64,000 nt of DNA from Dialister succinatiphilus YIT 11850 (lineage in GTDB: Bacteria; Bacillota; Negativicutes; Veillonellales; Dialisteraceae). The notes below the pieces were generated by a model. It saw only the letters and a program-made list of their open reading frames with translations, did no database searches and had not been told where the DNA came from. A program made the position numbers and the translations under genes. Position 1 is the first letter of the stretch, and each line of letters begins with the position of its first letter. Below, piece by piece: positions 52,976-60,760 of the stretch. The stretch lies in the NCBI RefSeq assembly GCF_000242435.1, contig NZ_JH591187.1, positions 1,004,291 to 1,068,290 on the forward strand, read 5' to 3'.

Positions 52976-53010
52976 GGCTGTGAAAAAATGGGAATCATTT
53001 CTTCACAGCC
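52976..53010 (-). terminator. Terminator of the pseudouridine synthase gene
   Basis: The GGCTGTGAAgAAATG / CATTTTTTCACAGCC stem is followed by CTTTTTAGC on the minus strand. Same stem family as the sodA terminator. Confidence 0.8.
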
Positions 53011-53041
53011 TTTTTCATTGACAACCTGCAGTTTATCCATT

Positions 53042-54016
53042 TCATGACTGCCGCTTATCTTCGAAATTAAATTTTTCCATATCCGCCGGCAGCCTGGCAG
53101 TGAACAGTTTTCCGGAGAGCACTTCCAGAGGAGGATTCAAATGTTTTGGAAACCGGACTTTTCCTGCATGGAGCAGCTGCCGCCTGATATGATTTCTATC
53201 CGAGAAGGCTATGCTTTCCTTTGTACCGTACTTCCTGTCTCCCAAAATGGGATGACCGGCGTGAGCGAAGTGGACGCGGATCTGGTGGGAGCGTCCGGTA
53301 ATGAGATGGACTTCCACCAGGGTGCAGAGGTCCTGCCCCATTCTTTTCACGGCGATTTGCTTATATCTTGTTTCCACGGGCCTGGCGCCTTCTTCTTCAT
53401 GGTCCAGACAGCGAACCTGATTTTTTCTTTCATCTTTAACCATCCAGCCTTTGAAGGTACCCTGTTTTTCTGTTTCGCCCCAAACCATGGCGATGTAAGT
53501 TTTGCTTACTGCCCTGGTGCGGATGAGCTCACTCAGCTGCTGCAGGGCAGCCATGGTCTTTCCGGCCAGCACAATGCCGCTGGTATTTCGGTCCAGCCGA
53601 TTACAGATGGAGGGACGGAAGGCCGGGGTGATTTCATCTTTTAAATAGGCAAGAAGACCGTCGTTCAGGGAAGGGCTGCCGCTGCCGTCCCCCTGGGAAA
53701 GAAGACCGGCCGGTTTATTCAGCGCCAATACGTTCTCATCTTCATAGAGAATGGAGGAGAAGAAAAAGGAAAGGTCCTTCCCTTTCGGTTTCATTTCGTC
53801 CTGAAATTTTGAAATAGTATCATCGGAAAACCAGATGTCTATTCGGTCGCCGGAAACTAGTTTTTCTTTTCCTTCCATCTTTTTCCCGTTCAGAGTGATG
53901 TTCTTTTTTCTCATGCTTTTCCGAAGCAGACCTGCAGCAGCATTCGGAAGAATATGGGTTACATATTTCCATGCAGTAGTACCTGCTTCTGCCTGTGATA
54001 CGATCCAGGATTTCAT
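53042..54016 (-). CDS. RluC/RluD-family pseudouridine synthase
   Basis: 324 residues. An N-terminal S4-type RNA-binding region (LLRKSMRKKNITLNGKK, then GDRIDIWF) precedes the catalytic block NRLDRNTSGIVLAGK with the nucleophilic Asp. GRSHQIRVHFAHAGHPILGD is the second block. The target is rRNA or tRNA uridine, not determinable here. Its start overlaps the NiaR stop by 4 bp, so the two genes form an operon. Confidence 0.9.
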   Translation of the reverse strand: MKSWIVSQAEAGTTAWKYVTHILPNAAAGLLRKSMRKKNITLNGKKMEGKEKLVSGDRIDIWFSDDTISKFQDEMKPKGKDLSFFFSSILYEDENVLALNKPAGLLSQGDGSGSPSLNDGLLAYLKDEITPAFRPSICNRLDRNTSGIVLAGKTMAALQQLSELIRTRAVSKTYIAMVWGETEKQGTFKGWMVKDERKNQVRCLDHEEEGARPVETRYKQIAVKRMGQDLCTLVEVHLITGRSHQIRVHFAHAGHPILGDRKYGTKESIAFSDRNHIRRQLLHAGKVRFPKHLNPPLEVLSGKLFTARLPADMEKFNFEDKRQS

Positions 54017-54543
54017 AGATTCACCTGCCTGTCTTCATAAAGGAATCCCGCTTTTCGAAGGGACTCTTCCACCCTGTCCATATCTTCTTTCTCTTTCGTT
54101 TCCACCAGATGGCTGTGGATGCCTCCGCTCATGGACGAAAGAAGGGGCGCATTCTTTGTTTTCATTCTTTCAATGAAAGCCTGAATGTCTCCCCTGTTCC
54201 TGATTTCCAAACCGGCGGTAAGGGTACCGTACACTTCGTGCTCTACGGACACGTTGTGCACCATGCCGCCGGCAGAAATAATCATTTCCAGTTCTTCTGC
54301 CGTATGACGGCGGTCATGGCAGCAGACCAGGGTTTTACGGTATCCCTTTCCTCCCTGTTCGGTCAGGTAGTATCCCCGGGGTGTGGATACCACAGGCAGT
54401 CCCCGAGCCTTCAGAAGGGCCATGTCTCCTACAATGATCTGCCGGCTGACATGCATCTGACGGGCCAGCTCGCTTCCCCGCACTTTCCCCTGCTTTTCCT
54501 TCAGAATATGTGCTATCTTTTCCCGCCGTTCTTCCCCATTCAT
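54013..54543 (-). CDS. niaR: Niacin-responsive transcriptional repressor NiaR
   Basis: 176 residues. An N-terminal winged helix (KVRGSELARQMHVSRQIIVGDMALL in two pieces) is followed by a C-terminal 3H domain, recognised by its three conserved His (HDRRH, GGMVHNVSVEH, GIHSHLVE). NiaR/YrxA proteins bind nicotinic acid and repress NAD synthesis or niacin uptake genes in Firmicutes. No such target gene lies in the window. GAGGTGGTATAG precedes the ATG. Confidence 0.9.
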   Translation of the reverse strand: MNGEERREKIAHILKEKQGKVRGSELARQMHVSRQIIVGDMALLKARGLPVVSTPRGYYLTEQGGKGYRKTLVCCHDRRHTAEELEMIISAGGMVHNVSVEHEVYGTLTAGLEIRNRGDIQAFIERMKTKNAPLLSSMSGGIHSHLVETKEKEDMDRVEESLRKAGFLYEDRQVNL

Positions 54544-54668
54544 CTATACCACCTCTTATGGGTATTGTATCACAAAAGGACTGCCCCGCGGCCTTGGTTC
54601 ATAGCGGACATATTTTTAAACTGGACCGGCCTCTGGACAGCCCGCAGCGGCTGCCCCGATTCCAGCCC

Positions 54669-56015
54669 TCAGCCTTCCGGCTTCCCTGCCAGTTCTTCCA
54701 GTTTCTTTCTGTCCGCTTTCCCTGTAGATGTACGAGGTATGGCGGGCAGCACCATGAAGCGGGAGGGAATTTCCCAGGGTTTCAGATGGCAGGAGAGGCG
54801 CTTTACCAGCTGTTTTCTTTCCATCACCTGTCCCGTGAGGAAGGCAATCAGGGTATCGTCGCCGTTTTTCTGTTTCAGCGCGGTGACTTCCGCGTCTTCC
54901 ACGCCATCCACCATGAGGAGGGTGGAGAGTACTTTCTGTCTTGATACGTGATTTCCCTGTACATGGTACATGTCTTCCCTTCTCCCCAGAAAATGGAGCT
55001 CTCCCTTTTCATCCAGCCGACCCAGGTCGTGGCAGGTATAGGGCATGTAAATCCCTTCGATGCCATAGGGGGTGTCTACAGTAATTTCTCCATTTTCGAT
55101 GGAAACTTTCACATGGGGGAAGGGTTTTCCCACTTTGTCCGGGGAATGAAGGATTTCTTTTCCCTCAGTGAAGGAGATATAGCTCAGCTCAGAGGCGCCG
55201 TAGTATAAAATCACGCTGGCCGCCGGAAACCGTTCTGTGAGCCGCCGGTAAAGGGAAGCAGTCATAAGCTGGGAACCGGTGAGGATGTGGGTCACCGGTT
55301 CCGCCTGTCCCTTTGTTTTGGACAGCAGGGAAAGCTTGGAGGGAATCATGTAGATATGGGTGATTTTCTCCTTTTGAATCCGTTCCATCCATGTTTTCGG
55401 TGTCAGGCGGCTGCTGCCATGCAGAGAGGCACCTTCGGAGAGAAAATCCATGACCATATTCAGATTTCCAGTAAAAGCCAGAGATCCATGAAAAAAGAGA
55501 CGGGACCTGCCATCTACTTTGAAAATCCGGTCCTGCAGGGGAAAGAAATCTGTCCAGCTCTCATCCCTGCGGTAAAGGATTTTCGGAAGGCCTGTGCTGC
55601 CGGAAGTGAGCACCCCGAAGACGCCGGACCGGGGTGCAGTTCTGTCCCAGGTCCGAAGGAAAAGATGTTTCTCCTGTTTCAAAGAAAGGGAAGGCAGCGG
55701 TCTGTCGGAAAGGAAAAGGCCTACCGGCTGTTTTTCCAGCATCACCGACAGCTCTTTTTTCTCCAGATATTCATGGTAAAGGACTGGTACACTGCCGGCA
55801 TAGGAAAGGGCCAGAAAATAGAGAAGCTGTTTCAAAGGCTGGTGCAGGTAGAGCGCTGTGAGCTTCCCTTTCACGCCCAGGGCTGAAAGGGCTTCTTTTT
55901 CTTCTTCTACAAACCGGAGGGCTTCACCCCAGGTCATGGAAAAGCCATCATCCTCATAAAAGGTATCATCCTTTTTTTCTTTCCCCCACCGGAGAAGGTA
56001 TTCATAGCATTTCAT
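54669..56015 (-). CDS. AMP-forming acyl-CoA ligase in the biotin-controlled operon (YhfT-like)
   Basis: About 448 residues, ANL superfamily. The P-loop GVLTSGSTGLPKILYRRD (A3 motif), YYGASELSYISF (A5), HDLGRLDEKGELHFLGRRED (A7-A8) and the C-terminal Lys in RTSTGKADRKKL (A10) are all present, so it should be active. The start at 56015 follows GGAGGTGAAGCT and overlaps the thiolase stop by 4 bp. B. subtilis has a BirA-regulated yhfU-yhfT-yhfS set with BioY, a ligase and a thiolase, which this operon mirrors. The acyl substrate is unknown. Confidence 0.85.
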   Translation of the reverse strand: MKCYEYLLRWGKEKKDDTFYEDDGFSMTWGEALRFVEEEKEALSALGVKGKLTALYLHQPLKQLLYFLALSYAGSVPVLYHEYLEKKELSVMLEKQPVGLFLSDRPLPSLSLKQEKHLFLRTWDRTAPRSGVFGVLTSGSTGLPKILYRRDESWTDFFPLQDRIFKVDGRSRLFFHGSLAFTGNLNMVMDFLSEGASLHGSSRLTPKTWMERIQKEKITHIYMIPSKLSLLSKTKGQAEPVTHILTGSQLMTASLYRRLTERFPAASVILYYGASELSYISFTEGKEILHSPDKVGKPFPHVKVSIENGEITVDTPYGIEGIYMPYTCHDLGRLDEKGELHFLGRREDMYHVQGNHVSRQKVLSTLLMVDGVEDAEVTALKQKNGDDTLIAFLTGQVMERKQLVKRLSCHLKPWEIPSRFMVLPAIPRTSTGKADRKKLEELAGKPEG

Positions 56016-57220
56016 AGCTTCACCTCCAGAGGGATGGAAAAGGCGGTGTGTCTTTCCCTTTCTTCTGTCCATTCCCTTTCATCCACGTGATGAATGAGGA
56101 CCGCTTCTCCCACACCACCGGCGGCTGGAATGGCGGCCACTCCCAGATTTCCATCTTCCCTTTCCAGAATTTTCATAAGGTGTATCATGATTTCCGCGCC
56201 GCTGGCTCCATAGGGATGCCCGTAGGCCAGGGCGCCGCCCCAGCGGTTCAGCCGGTCTGCCACGTCTCTGTGCTTTTTCCGAAAGTCGGCACTGATCACT
56301 GCAAAGGCTTCATTATACTCAAAAGCATCCAGATCACTGTAAAAAAGGCCTTTGTCTCTAAGGAGTAAGGAAACTGCCAGGTCTGCTGACAGCGGCGGCA
56401 CTGCAGGATCTGCGCCGATCATGGAAAAGCCTTTGATTTCAGCCGACGGCACCAGGTCCCTTTCCCGGAGCCATCTTTCCGATGCCAGCATCACAAAGGC
56501 AGCCCCATCATTGATGGTACAGGTATTGGCAGCGGTAAGGATGCCTTCGGGAAAATCAGTGACCCTGGGAGCTCTTGCCAGCAGTTTTTCAGACATTCTT
56601 TTCCGAAGAGCCTCGTCCCGGCTGCTGCCAAAAAGGGGGAGAATCACATCCTTCAGCCATCCTTCTTCGGCCGCCTTTTTCGCTCTTTCCTGGCTCAGAA
56701 GGGCTGCCTCGTCTGCTTCCTCTCTAGTAATACCGGCTGCTTTTGCCGCCCTTTCCGCTCCAAGAAGCATGGCGTCATCACCAAATTCGCCGGGCCGGAA
56801 CTGGGCCGCCGTGAACACAGGATTTCTAAGGCTGCTTCTTTCATCATTGTCTGCGTATCGCCTCTGGGGCTGAAGGGATGCACTTTCTGCACCGCCTGCC
56901 AGCACCACATCCCACTCCCCTGCCATAATGGAAAGGGCCGCCATGTGGATGGCCGCCAGACCGGAAGCGCACTGCAGGTCAATCGTAAAAGCCGCCGCCC
57001 TTTCAGGAAGACCGCCTTCCAGAAGAAGAAGGCGCCCTATATTTCCGCCAGGCCCCACAGCGTTGCCGCAGATGAGGGCATCGGGCCCCTGAATGCCGTA
57101 CCTCTGGCAGAGGGTACTGGCCACCCTGCCGCCCAGCACTTCCGGTCTGATATGTTTGAAAATGCCGTTCCGGATGCCGATATGGCTCCGAAGACCGCCT
57201 GCAAGAAATACCCGGTTCAT
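56012..57220 (-). CDS. Thiolase-family protein lacking the second catalytic Cys (YhfS-like)
   Basis: 402 residues. The acyl-accepting Cys is present in DLQCASGLAA (Cys84) and the GHP motif His in YGHPYGASGAE (His335). The usual C-terminal CxGGGxG motif, whose Cys acts as base, is replaced by PAAGGVG, with Pro at about residue 365. This argues against a normal biosynthetic thiolase reaction; thioester hydrolysis, transfer or a scaffold role are alternatives. Its start overlaps the MaoC-like stop and its stop overlaps the ligase start, each by 4 bp. Confidence 0.85.
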   Translation of the reverse strand: MNRVFLAGGLRSHIGIRNGIFKHIRPEVLGGRVASTLCQRYGIQGPDALICGNAVGPGGNIGRLLLLEGGLPERAAAFTIDLQCASGLAAIHMAALSIMAGEWDVVLAGGAESASLQPQRRYADNDERSSLRNPVFTAAQFRPGEFGDDAMLLGAERAAKAAGITREEADEAALLSQERAKKAAEEGWLKDVILPLFGSSRDEALRKRMSEKLLARAPRVTDFPEGILTAANTCTINDGAAFVMLASERWLRERDLVPSAEIKGFSMIGADPAVPPLSADLAVSLLLRDKGLFYSDLDAFEYNEAFAVISADFRKKHRDVADRLNRWGGALAYGHPYGASGAEIMIHLMKILEREDGNLGVAAIPAAGGVGEAVLIHHVDEREWTEERERHTAFSIPLEVKL

Positions 57221-57711
57221 TCAATCACCGCCTCAAAACATAATACCCGGGAAAATCCATAAATGGTTTTTCCTTCTTTTTTCAAATACACCGCTTCACC
57301 AGCATACAAGGGATGGTGGAAGCGGATATGGAAGGTTTTAAAATTTTTCTTTTCTGCCAGGGCAAGGGCGATCTGGAATCCGCTCACCACAGGGCGCAGG
57401 GTCTGATGGATTTCATTGTGGTCCCCCAGGGAAAGGCTGAAGGAACGCACCTCTTCTGCAGAAAACCGGCACCACAGGGATCCCTGGCCGTTCCTTTCCT
57501 TCCCCGCTTTTTCGGAAGGAGGAAAGAGCAGGATGGACATGTCTGCTGTGCCCTTCGTCACCCTGACCCTGACAATCCGCCTTCCGCTGCAGCTGACTTT
57601 ACAGAGCCCATGGGTATCCCCTTCTCCTCTACTGTAGCGGAGTACTCCCATCACCATGCCCTGCCACTCCTCTTTCCAGGCAATGCAGAGCGCCTTCATC
57701 AGTTCTTCCAT
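57217..57711 (-). CDS. MaoC/hotdog-like protein of the biotin-controlled operon
   Basis: About 164 residues. The C-terminal half resembles a MaoC-type hotdog: FSLSLGDHNEIH (residues about 91-102) holds the hydratase Asp-x4-His pair, followed by VVSGFQIALALAE and FHIRFHHPLYAGEAVYL. The N-terminal half lacks a recognised motif. It may hydrate an enoyl thioester or bind acyl-CoA or acyl-ACP. The start at 57711 follows AAAGGAGAATTC; a reading from 57756 runs into the terminator hairpin. Confidence 0.75.
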   Translation of the reverse strand: MEELMKALCIAWKEEWQGMVMGVLRYSRGEGDTHGLCKVSCSGRRIVRVRVTKGTADMSILLFPPSEKAGKERNGQGSLWCRFSAEEVRSFSLSLGDHNEIHQTLRPVVSGFQIALALAEKKNFKTFHIRFHHPLYAGEAVYLKKEGKTIYGFSRVLCFEAVIE

Positions 57712-57725
57712 GAATTCTCCTTTAT

Positions 57726-57756
57726 AAAAATGGCGGAAGGCAATGCCCTCCGCCAT
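57726..57756 (-). terminator. Terminator or attenuator between bioY and the MaoC-like gene
   Basis: The stem ATGGCGGAGGGC / GCCTTCCGCCAT with an ATT loop is followed by TTTTATA. The next gene's ribosome site comes immediately after, so it probably lowers but does not abolish read-through from bioY. Confidence 0.8.
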
Positions 57757-57784
57757 GAAATTTCTAAAACTAAAGAAGCAGGGA

Positions 57785-58321
57785 TTAAAGTTCTCCTACC
57801 AGTCTTCTTCTGTACTTGCTGACCAGGAAAGAAGCAAGCAGTATTTTGGCAAAATCACCGGGAAGGAAGGGGAACATGCACATCACCATGGATGCCCAGA
57901 TGCCCGTGCCCGTGAGGAACATGAACCAGGCAAGACCCATGATATAGCACACCGCCGTACCTGCAATGGTGGCAGCCATCATGTTTTTAAAGGAATAGCC
58001 CAGCTTTTCGGAAACCAGGCCCACCACAAATGCCATGGGCGCAAAGCCGATGATAAATCCGCCGGAAGGGCCTGCAATCACAGAAAAACCGGCGCGCATC
58101 ATGGAAAATACGGGCACCCCTGCCATACCAAGAAGCAGATAAATCACAATAGCCAGAAGACCATACCTCTTTCCAAGGAATCCGCCGGCCATGAGTACCG
58201 CAAAGGTACCAAGGGTAATGGGCACCGGCTGGATAGGAATGGTAATCTGGGAACACACCGCAGTGACTGCAGCAAATAATGCACATAAAACCTGCATACG
58301 GATAGAACGATTCTGATTCAT
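57785..58321 (-). CDS. bioY: Biotin transporter substrate-binding subunit BioY
   Basis: S component of an ECF-type biotin importer. 178 residues with about six membrane segments. The family blocks ITIPIQPVPITLGTFAVLMAG (split over the first helix), GSSGG-like AGPSGGFIIGF and GLAWF are present. AGGAGGTCATT precedes the ATG. It is controlled by a BirA box that overlaps the promoter. The ATPase and EcfT partners are not in the window. Confidence 0.95.
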   Translation of the reverse strand: MNQNRSIRMQVLCALFAAVTAVCSQITIPIQPVPITLGTFAVLMAGGFLGKRYGLLAIVIYLLLGMAGVPVFSMMRAGFSVIAGPSGGFIIGFAPMAFVVGLVSEKLGYSFKNMMAATIAGTAVCYIMGLAWFMFLTGTGIWASMVMCMFPFLPGDFAKILLASFLVSKYRRRLVGEL

Positions 58322-58344
58322 AATGACCTCCTGTTGATGGATTC

Positions 58345-58397
58345 ATTATAAAATCATGGAGAAAATTTGTCAACTGTCATCATATAGTAGTTTACAA
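58345..58397 (-). promoter_or_regulatory. bioY promoter with overlapping BirA operator
   Basis: The minus strand shows TTGACA (58368-58373), a 17-bp spacer and TATAAT (58345-58350). A BirA-type operator TTGTAAAC-N15-GTTGACAA spans 58367-58397, and its right half contains the -35 box. Biotin-loaded BirA would therefore block transcription of bioY and the downstream MaoC-thiolase-ligase genes. Confidence 0.85.
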
Positions 58398-58457
58398 ATG
58401 ATAACGATTGACCAACCTGGATCAGAAAGTTTTCGGAGAAACCGGCTGTCCTTCTCC

Positions 58458-59756
58458 TTACCCTTCATAGAGCACCGGTATCCAGTATGCTTCATTTCCT
58501 GCAATTTTTTCTTCGCTGAACCGGGCATAAATGGCCGATGGCCTGTCTCCCAGCATGAAGCAGGACAGCGTGACATATCCTTCCAGTATGCCCACGTCCG
58601 TTTTGGTCACGATTTTCTGCTGCGGTATGTACTGCTGCACCAGGGATGATTCGCTGTCGCGGCATACCACGTCCTCCGGATCTTCCACTTCTTTCCGATA
58701 CAGGGTCTCCCCTTTTTCGTTAATAATATCAATACCCCGTCCTTCTCTGCCCCAGATGGGTTTCCTGATCCACTGGGAGGGACTTTTTTCGTCTGGCCGG
58801 AAATCCCGCTGAAAAAAGCAGGGCGGAATATAGGTCCTGATGATTTCCCGTTCTTTTTCCGAGAAAAAGGCATGGTCTTCCATGAGGGCATAGAGCAGGG
58901 CCTGGAAGCCTTTGGACTGCATGATAATGGACTCCGGCGGATTCATCATATGGAAGCGGCCGGCCCCATAGCCTTCCATCATCAGTTCTCCCAGGGATGA
59001 ACCGTCCTGATCCGCCTTTTCCTCAATCAGGATTTCCATGGGATGCATGCGGTAGAGGAAGGATACGGTCCTTCCGTCGGGCAGGGCCAGGCTGCCGTCT
59101 TCCATAACCGCCAGATTGTAGAAGGATTCAAAGAGGATATATCTCCGCACGTCATCGGGCACTGCTTCCTTCATGGCGTTCATGAGAAACCGGGTGGTCC
59201 CCATATCTTCGATATAGTCATGGAAGCAGGAGAAAAGAATGGGATGTTCCTCCAGCTGCCGGCTGCTCATATGTCCACAGCACCTTAGATAGACATCCAG
59301 AAGGAAACTGCGAAGGCCGTTCATTTCAAAGGCATTGGGATTTTCTTTTCCGAAATACCGGGCTGCCACGCCATTGGCATAGTAGGCTTCGATTTCCGCG
59401 CAGGGCGTATCTGCATTGATTTCAACCATGTGGATGGCTCCGGTCTTTTCATCAATCACGTAGTCAAACCGGGATATCCAGGTGGGCAGGTCTTTCATGG
59501 CATTGCCGCCATGGAGATATTTCCGGAGTTTTTCTGGAATTTCCATGTCATCCATGAAAGAATCGCTGCACTCCATGGCCCGCCGTACCGCTTTGGCAAA
59601 AATGCCATACAGCGCCCCGCTGACCTGCCGTACTTCTTCTATCTGCTTTCTCGTCACAATGAGGGGCAGATGGGTGGGATAGCGGAAGGGATAACCGGGA
59701 TATTCCACATAGGGAAATATATTCCTGTCCAGATCGTCCATAAAAGTCTTTTCCAT
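58458..59756 (-). CDS. ATP-grasp glutathionylspermidine synthase-like protein (YgiC/YjfC-like)
   Basis: 432 residues that match the C-terminal synthetase domain of glutathionylspermidine synthase. Blocks seen are FDYVIDEKTGAIHMVEINADTPCA in two pieces, with the Mg-binding EIN, then RKPIWGREGRGI near the ATP site and LVQQYIPQQKI. It lacks the amidase domain. E. coli YgiC and YjfC are similar stand-alone proteins of unknown substrate. Its start overlaps by 1 bp the stop of a lipoprotein gene of YgiB type. Confidence 0.85.
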   Translation of the reverse strand: MEKTFMDDLDRNIFPYVEYPGYPFRYPTHLPLIVTRKQIEEVRQVSGALYGIFAKAVRRAMECSDSFMDDMEIPEKLRKYLHGGNAMKDLPTWISRFDYVIDEKTGAIHMVEINADTPCAEIEAYYANGVAARYFGKENPNAFEMNGLRSFLLDVYLRCCGHMSSRQLEEHPILFSCFHDYIEDMGTTRFLMNAMKEAVPDDVRRYILFESFYNLAVMEDGSLALPDGRTVSFLYRMHPMEILIEEKADQDGSSLGELMMEGYGAGRFHMMNPPESIIMQSKGFQALLYALMEDHAFFSEKEREIIRTYIPPCFFQRDFRPDEKSPSQWIRKPIWGREGRGIDIINEKGETLYRKEVEDPEDVVCRDSESSLVQQYIPQQKIVTKTDVGILEGYVTLSCFMLGDRPSAIYARFSEEKIAGNEAYWIPVLYEG

Positions 59757-60271
59757 CAGGACGCACCTCCCCTCACACCGGCACCGCCAAATCCGGTCTT
59801 CCCGCCGGATGGGGCCTTCACTGTGGAATTTCCGGAAGATTTGCCGGATTCATAGGAGGCATTTTTATTTCCAGCAGAGGCACCGCCGGTATTCTGCTGC
59901 TTCTGCTCCGTGTAGGCAGGCCGGTCATTCAGCACGCTGCCTGTATTCCTGTCATAGTGTCCGGAATATCCCGGCAGTCCATGAAACATGAAATAGCTCA
60001 TCATGAGAAGGGGCAGCAGACTGGAAGCACCGGACACGTACTGCAGATTGTCATTTTCATCACGGCGGAAGGTCACTTCCTCCCCATTATCATACCGGGC
60101 CGTTTCCGTACCGTCCTCATTCTTCACCAGGTGGTAGGTCCGGCCGTTCTCATCCTTCAGCTCATCCCCCTGGGCCTTCTGCTCCTGCCCGCAGCCCGCC
60201 ATCATCACCGCCGCGCCGCCGGCCGCCATAAAAGCAGCCAGAATGGCTGCTGTCTTTGCACTTCTATACAT
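59756..60271 (-). CDS. YgiB/DUF1190-like lipoprotein
   Basis: About 171 residues. The signal peptide ends at lipobox MAGC (Cys27). Middle region DENGRTYHLVKNEDGTETARYDNGEEVTF is polar (seen in pieces) and is followed by a hydrophobic LLPLLMMSYFMFHGLPGY stretch. The C-terminus is Gly/Ser-rich and ends in GFGGAGVRGG, like YgiB and YjfM. The start at 60271 follows AAAGGAGACACAC. Coupling with the YgiC-like gene repeats the ygiBC and yjfMC pairing of enterobacteria, which suggests joint action at the envelope. Confidence 0.75.
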   Translation of the reverse strand: MYRSAKTAAILAAFMAAGGAAVMMAGCGQEQKAQGDELKDENGRTYHLVKNEDGTETARYDNGEEVTFRRDENDNLQYVSGASSLLPLLMMSYFMFHGLPGYSGHYDRNTGSVLNDRPAYTEQKQQNTGGASAGNKNASYESGKSSGNSTVKAPSGGKTGFGGAGVRGGAS

Positions 60272-60387
60272 GTGTGTCTCCTTTATTTCTATTTGATGAA
60301 ATATGATTTGTTCTTTAAGTATCATACCATATAAAGGGCTCTCCGGTTTCCTGTTTTTTATTTCCACTCTTGCCATCCAATACAAAA

Positions 60388-60760
60388 GGGGCTGTGAAAA
60401 AATGATTTACATTTTTCACAGCCCCTTTTGTATACATAAATTTTCACGGTAATTGGCCCAATGACAGTCTGCTTCCTGCCTCTACGTCATTTCGAGCGAT
60501 GCTGCATGTAGTTATGGATAATAATGCCTTTGGTTCTATTGAGGCTCTGAGCCCCGAAATCTCACGCCGCAATGAGGTTTATACTATCGTGGAATGAGAT
60601 TTCTCCACTCTGTGGAGGTCCTGCATAGGACCCCCAAGTCAGCCGAAGTTGGCCTCTAGCCTGCCCAATAAGAGGCTTTCCTATTGTCGGCTGACTGACC
60701 GTCGAAATGACAGTGAGGTGGAGTGGCAGCGGTGTCATTTCTGTATTTTTTCACAGCCCC
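60388..60760. mobile_element. MITE-like nested palindromic element with 16-bp terminal inverted repeats
   Basis: Perfect 16-bp ends GGGGCTGTGAAAAAAT (60388-60403) and its complement (60745-60760). Inside are a mate of the left end (60411-60425) that makes a hairpin, a CGTCATTTCGA / TCGAAATGACA pair (60485-60712) and an inserted segment bounded by AGTCAGCCGA / TCGGCTGACT (60637-60696). There is no coding capacity. The 60485-60712 part is homologous to 52175-52324, which lacks the innermost insert. Confidence 0.75.

Follow-up and report, generated by a model that had tools for sequence, protein, structure and literature searches.

The stretch of DNA analysed here (the window) comprises 64,000 nucleotides of the Dialister succinatiphilus YIT 11850 genome (contig NZ_JH591187.1, positions 1,004,291 to 1,068,290), and carries on its minus strand a four-gene cassette with a BirA operator, in the order bioY, hotdog, thiolase and ligase. 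The first gene (57785-58321) encodes BioY, the S-component of an energy-coupling factor (ECF) biotin transporter (178 aa; PF02632, 5.5e-43; L. lactis BioY 4dve, 7.8e-15). It is followed by genes for a MaoC-like hotdog protein (57217-57711, 164 aa), predicted from motif, profile and fold to be an (R)-3-hydroxyacyl-thioester dehydratase/hydratase, a YhfS-type thiolase lacking the second catalytic Cys (56012-57220, 402 aa; TIGR01930, 1.2e-92), and a YhfT-type AMP-forming acyl ligase (54669-56015, 448 aa; AMP-binding, 5.8e-25).

Operator, promoter and internal hairpin

The operator TTGTAAACTACTATATGATGACAGTTGACAA (58397-58367, minus strand) reads TTGTAAAC-N15-GTTGACAA and has no mismatch to TTGTNAAC-N15-GTTNACAA. 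Its right half-site contains the -35 hexamer TTGACA (at 58373) of a sigma-70 promoter (58345-58373, minus strand; TTGACA-N17-TATAAT, matching the consensus at 12 of 12 positions), bearing out the overlap with the bioY -35 box described in the initial annotation. Taking TTGTNAAC-N14-16-GTTNACAA at a promoter as the mark of the BirA regulon, the window locus bears this mark. The operator is the sole site with two or fewer mismatches in the window, where shuffling predicts 0.10, and the sole N15 site without mismatch in the whole 2.5-Mb genome, in which weak operator-like sequences are found near bioB and bioW (2 mismatches) and near birA (3 mismatches). Of 84 cassette loci, 30 have a BirA operator with at most one mismatch at their start, compared with 0.036% of shuffled regions. 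A BirA with a DNA-binding domain is encoded in the same genome, adjoining another bioY (L017: HTH_11, BPL_LplA_LipB and BPL_C; birA_ligase TIGR00121, 3.2e-63), and an Rfam scan of 53000-60500 found no riboswitch. Biotin-dependent repression by BirA has been shown at the S. aureus yhfS-yhfT and bioY promoters (PMC6391492). Putative BirA control of the cassette is supported by these sequence features.

Coupling of the downstream genes by 4-bp overlaps, as initially proposed, holds for the hotdog/thiolase and thiolase/ligase junctions (ATGA), but not for bioY and the hotdog gene, which are 73 bp apart with a hairpin between them. The hotdog start was placed at 57711, which has a strong Shine-Dalgarno sequence and a Met invariant in the first alignment, in place of 57756, an upstream ATG that falls within the hairpin stem; the ligase start was likewise moved, from 56072 to 56015. 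The terminator-like hairpin (57730-57756, minus strand; 12-bp stem and T tail) separates bioY from the enzyme genes and is found at the same place in three more Dialister species (G005, G003 and G004), with the same structure and T run in differing sequences. Its GC-rich stem and T run fold at -27.9 kcal/mol in the window and at -18.4, -14.8 and -16.1 kcal/mol in the other three species, whereas mononucleotide-shuffled versions of the window stretch have a mean of -12.5 kcal/mol. Since the T run and the Shine-Dalgarno sequence of the hotdog gene are too close together to fit a promoter between them, the enzyme genes probably rely on read-through, with output below that of BioY; a promoter inside bioY is also possible.

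Directly downstream of the ligase lies a gene for a 3H-domain helix-turn-helix (HTH) regulator (54013-54543; NiaR-like, niacin repressor type), and a pseudouridine synthase gene is also found downstream of the cassette. A GSP_synth (glutathionylspermidine synthase-like) gene (58458-59756) is located just upstream of the operator.

Families and active sites of the cassette enzymes

The window thiolase scores 244.9 bits against PRK06690 (YhfS; 1.4e-72, curated cut-off 498), its second-best NCBIfam model after the broad TIGR01930, and is by this cut-off a relative of the YhfS family that lies outside its membership. For the ligase, PRK07638 (YhfT) is the best NCBIfam model (134.5 bits, 3.9e-39), below the curated cut-off of 518 bits. 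These rankings agree with the kinship to the B. subtilis yhfU/yhfS/yhfT set recognised initially. The link between BirA, yhfST and bioY is already known: yhfS-yhfT-yhfU (bioY) of Bacillus subtilis and yhfS-yhfT with bioY of Staphylococcus aureus have the same BirA operator, BioY, YhfS-type thiolase and YhfT-type ligase (PMC6391492, PMC7235819, PMC11089781). Unlike these sets, the window cassette adds a MaoC-like gene, has bioY in the same gene string and contains an internal terminator-like hairpin, and cassettes of this kind are frequent in genomes without bioF or bioB. In the open-licence papers searched, there was no mention of the hotdog partner, of the two residue replacements in the thiolase, of the internal hairpin or of the independence from bioF.

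The thiolase retains Cys89, Asn316 and His348, and among 94 YhfS-type thiolases the nucleophile Cys and the His are invariant and the Asn is present in 93. Its AlphaFold2 model (predicted local distance difference test, pLDDT, 92.9) has classical thiolases as its nearest folds, and it has the fold, the nucleophile Cys, the NEAF Asn and the GHP His in common with biosynthetic thiolases such as C. acetobutylicum ThlA and that of Z. ramigera. Unlike the latter, the cassette enzymes have Ala or Pro at the Cys378 position (Ala in 89, Pro in 5 and Cys in none of the 94) and Cys at the Ser247 position (91 of 94), where nine ordinary thiolases of related genomes all have Cys and Ser, respectively. Cys378 is the base that generates the enolate in the non-decarboxylative Claisen condensation, while Ser247 sits in the pantetheine-binding region. 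The window enzyme therefore falls outside the classical thiolases defined by two catalytic Cys residues with Asn and His, and the chemistry of the YhfS type may be decarboxylative condensation or acyl transfer.

The label MaoC-like, given to the hotdog protein from the start, is upheld by motif, profile and fold, though not by a direct Pfam match: the window protein has no match to PF01575, and 6 of 41 relatives do (best 3.9e-5). The hydratase motif D-x-N-x-[ILV]-H is present in all 66 hotdog relatives, the profile matches PhaJ (1iq6, 4.6e-6) and 3-hydroxyacyl-thioester dehydratase 2 (3ir3, 5.7e-6) with the motif residues aligned, and the AlphaFold2 model (pLDDT 92.8) gives Foldseek matches to HtdX and hydratase 2 domains. 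The protein thus has the hotdog fold and the catalytic D-x-N-x-x-H that characterise the MaoC/hydratase 2 group, including PhaJ, HtdX and 3-hydroxyacyl-thioester dehydratase 2. It differs from the PhaJ/HtdX group in being 164 residues long, in the shorter overhang that follows the motif and in its smaller N-terminal half, and lies below Pfam detection.

The ligase contains the TSGSTG motif and, at the C-terminal end, the Lys motif STGKADRKK; a search of solved structures returned generic adenylating enzymes only, and its substrate cannot be predicted from sequence. The ligase and thiolase together bear on a possible, though doubtful, alternative, in which the cassette has some other use, for example with YhfT passing an acyl-AMP to a carrier protein and the thiolase-fold protein transferring or hydrolysing the acyl group of some acid required in biotin shortage, as an acyltransferase or thioesterase. 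An enzyme restricted to acyl transfer would be compatible with the loss of Cys378, and B. subtilis YhfT reportedly yields acyl adenylates but not CoA thioesters (PMC10988940); against this, the operons share no recurring carrier protein as a partner, and the intact hydratase motif implies β-hydroxyacyl chemistry.

Distribution and relation to biotin synthesis

Cassettes were found at more than 80 loci in Negativicutes, Clostridia, C. difficile and a spirochaete. Scanning with the thiolase profile identified 80 loci, including two in Dialister metagenome-assembled genomes (MAGs) that were already known, with the ligase in nearly all and bioY and the hotdog gene in most; they come from Selenomonadaceae, Acidaminococcaceae, Lachnospiraceae, Clostridiaceae, C. 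difficile and a spirochaete MAG. In the order examined first, 11 of 11 hotdog-carrying loci contain all four genes, and relatives with thiolase identities of 84% and 74% are Dialister MAGs. The hotdog protein is a recurrent but non-universal partner. On the thiolase tree its presence is clustered, requiring some 14 changes where shuffled labels require 21.9, which indicates that the gene was repeatedly lost or gained. No fifth gene recurs in the operons across lineages, an extra reductase or carrier gene having been sought; neighbours shared by several loci are lineage-specific. bioY is often located in mid-operon. At one locus (L145:3236-7422), bioB heads a bioB-thiolase-ligase operon, with a divergent bioY that has a BirA box without mismatch at its start. 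A candidate residue change marking the BioY of cassettes (G in Dialister in place of the Q of PITLQ) was inconsistent across cassettes and was rejected.

Genes bioB, bioD, bioF and bioW are missing from the window, as first noted for bioB, bioD and bioF, and a look-up elsewhere in the genome located these as well as bioA: the host has bioW-bioF, bioY-bioD-bioA, three tandem bioB genes, and a birA (HTH domain) adjoining the third bioY. With bioWF, bioDA and bioB, the host can make biotin from pimelate. The three bioY paralogs (L001, L002 and L003) belong to the cassette, precede bioD-bioA and lie beside birA. The three bioB paralogs (L052:8139-12133; G000:C2:200195-204120) are 47-68% identical, all with CxxxCxxC, and have a BirA-like box upstream (2 mismatches, N16) and no other bio gene adjoining; the trio is also present in G004 and G005.

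An initial suggestion was that the cassette makes or recycles a pimelate-like precursor, with ligase and condensing enzyme producing a C7 dicarboxyl thioester for BioF. Such chemistry would resemble that of BioZ, bioWF is present in this genome, and organisms that use BioW have no known origin for their pimelate (PMC11089781). With BioW and BioF, however, the genome is already equipped, and the co-occurrence with bioF expected of a pimeloyl-thioester supply was not seen. Among 200 sampled Negativicutes genomes, bioF is present in 37 of 69 with a YhfS-type thiolase (called at ≥484 bits, the next group scoring ≤449) and in 73 of 131 without (Fisher p=0.88, uncorrected for relatedness). Among 42 cassette genomes of the wider scan, many of them MAGs of unknown completeness, bioF is absent from 35, bioB from 16 and both from 14; genomes lacking bioF or bioB include those of isolates, e.g. 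[Clostridium] citroniae WAL-17108 and Anaerovibrio sp. RM50. A Dialister relative (G002; 99% complete, 1.3 Mb) without bioB, bioD, bioF and bioW has nevertheless kept bioY, thiolase and ligase (L175, G002:C1:343000-355500), a locus at which the hotdog gene was not found. The 40 nearest genomes divide into 14 with cassette and bioWF, 7 with the cassette only, 6 with bioWF and no cassette thiolase, and 13 with neither. Because of the missing association with bioF and the cassettes in bioF-less genomes, a pimelate role is unlikely as a general function, and we consider it very improbable here. Genome comparison shows that the cassette recurs as a unit, independent of the biotin-ring pathway.

A possible role in biotin shortage

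The cassette is often present in anaerobes unable to make biotin, and so probably serves salvage in biotin shortage rather than the building of biotin's first precursor. We therefore regard a BirA-controlled salvage module, with no role in pimelate supply, as the highly probable reading, one that keeps the connection between acyl-thioester chemistry and biotin status drawn in the initial annotation. The choice of mechanism is narrowed by biotin control, the frequent linkage to a biotin-type S-component and the independence of ring synthesis. Biotin scarcity would switch the module on, the cassette BioY would bring in a biotin-like carboxylic acid, and the YhfT-type ligase would activate it. 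The thiolase-fold enzyme would then extend the acid by two carbons, probably by decarboxylative chemistry like that of a β-ketoacyl synthase (KAS), since the Cys that acts as Claisen base is gone, and the chain would be finished by a general FabG, the cassette hydratase and a general enoyl reductase.

Biotin control and independence of bioF would fit equally well with a biotin-sparing lipid response, in which low biotin cuts acetyl-CoA carboxylase activity and malonyl-CoA, and BirA derepresses the uptake, elongation or remodelling of exogenous fatty or hydroxy acids by ligase, thiolase and dehydratase; the YhfT of B. subtilis reportedly uses 3-hydroxy fatty acids as substrates (PMC10988940). 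A malonyl-independent thiolase should, however, need the second Cys that is absent from all 94 sequences, and the tight linkage to bioY would be left unexplained. The internal hairpin also sits badly with a lipid-scale flux, as the low enzyme output that it implies suggests a vitamin-scale one. We consider the lipid response rather unlikely, and favour action on a BioY import because of the attenuating hairpin (in Dialister), the lack of a base for malonyl-free elongation and the frequent position of bioY inside the operon.

For the salvage module, the import may be a side-chain-shortened biotin vitamer such as bisnorbiotin, which is the best-fitting candidate since activation, two-carbon extension and dehydration, with general reductions, would yield biotin. 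That such a vitamer is imported by the cassette BioY and rebuilt to biotin is a tentative proposal, with less than even chances. Bisnorbiotin is a main mammalian biotin catabolite (PMC9106636) and has been reported in rumen fluid (PMC11758634). BioZ provides a precedent for making the biotin side-chain precursor with a KAS-like enzyme and the fatty-acid cycle (reviewed in PMC11089781). The proposed model shares with the BioZ pathway of Agrobacterium and Brucella a KAS-like condensation followed by the fatty-acid cycle in the service of biotin, but BioZ is of the FabH type, whereas the cassette combines a thiolase-fold enzyme with a ligase and a dedicated hydratase and is unlinked to bioF.

Several points weigh against this reading. 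Any cassette substrate, bisnorbiotin included, is an unproven candidate, and B. subtilis YhfT, according to one report, adenylates 3-hydroxy fatty acids but does not go on to CoA thioesters (PMC10988940). Of the 87 loci on the tree, 25 yielded no hotdog gene (C. difficile, Succiniclasticum and S. ruminantium), the cassette has no reductase gene, and no change pointing to a new specificity is consistent among its BioY proteins. Faecal excretion accounts for less than 2% of biotin (PMC9106636), which makes vitamer supply in the gut uncertain, and rumen bisnorbiotin correlates positively, not negatively, with Selenomonas and Quinella. A search of open-licence papers found none on the use of bisnorbiotin by bacteria. 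An undescribed vitamin repair, in which biotin auxotrophs recycle degraded biotin by BirA-controlled import and two-carbon re-extension of bisnorbiotin, is accordingly a speculative possibility that we hold to be doubtful.

YhfS and YhfT have been known as BirA targets for years, and their role in biotin metabolism was never established. The retention of the set in organisms unable to make biotin turns attention away from precursor synthesis and towards salvage, and the genome comparison names concrete residues, partners and substrates. If biotin vitamer repair proves true, anaerobes of the gut and rumen, C. difficile among them, would have a new source of the vitamin.

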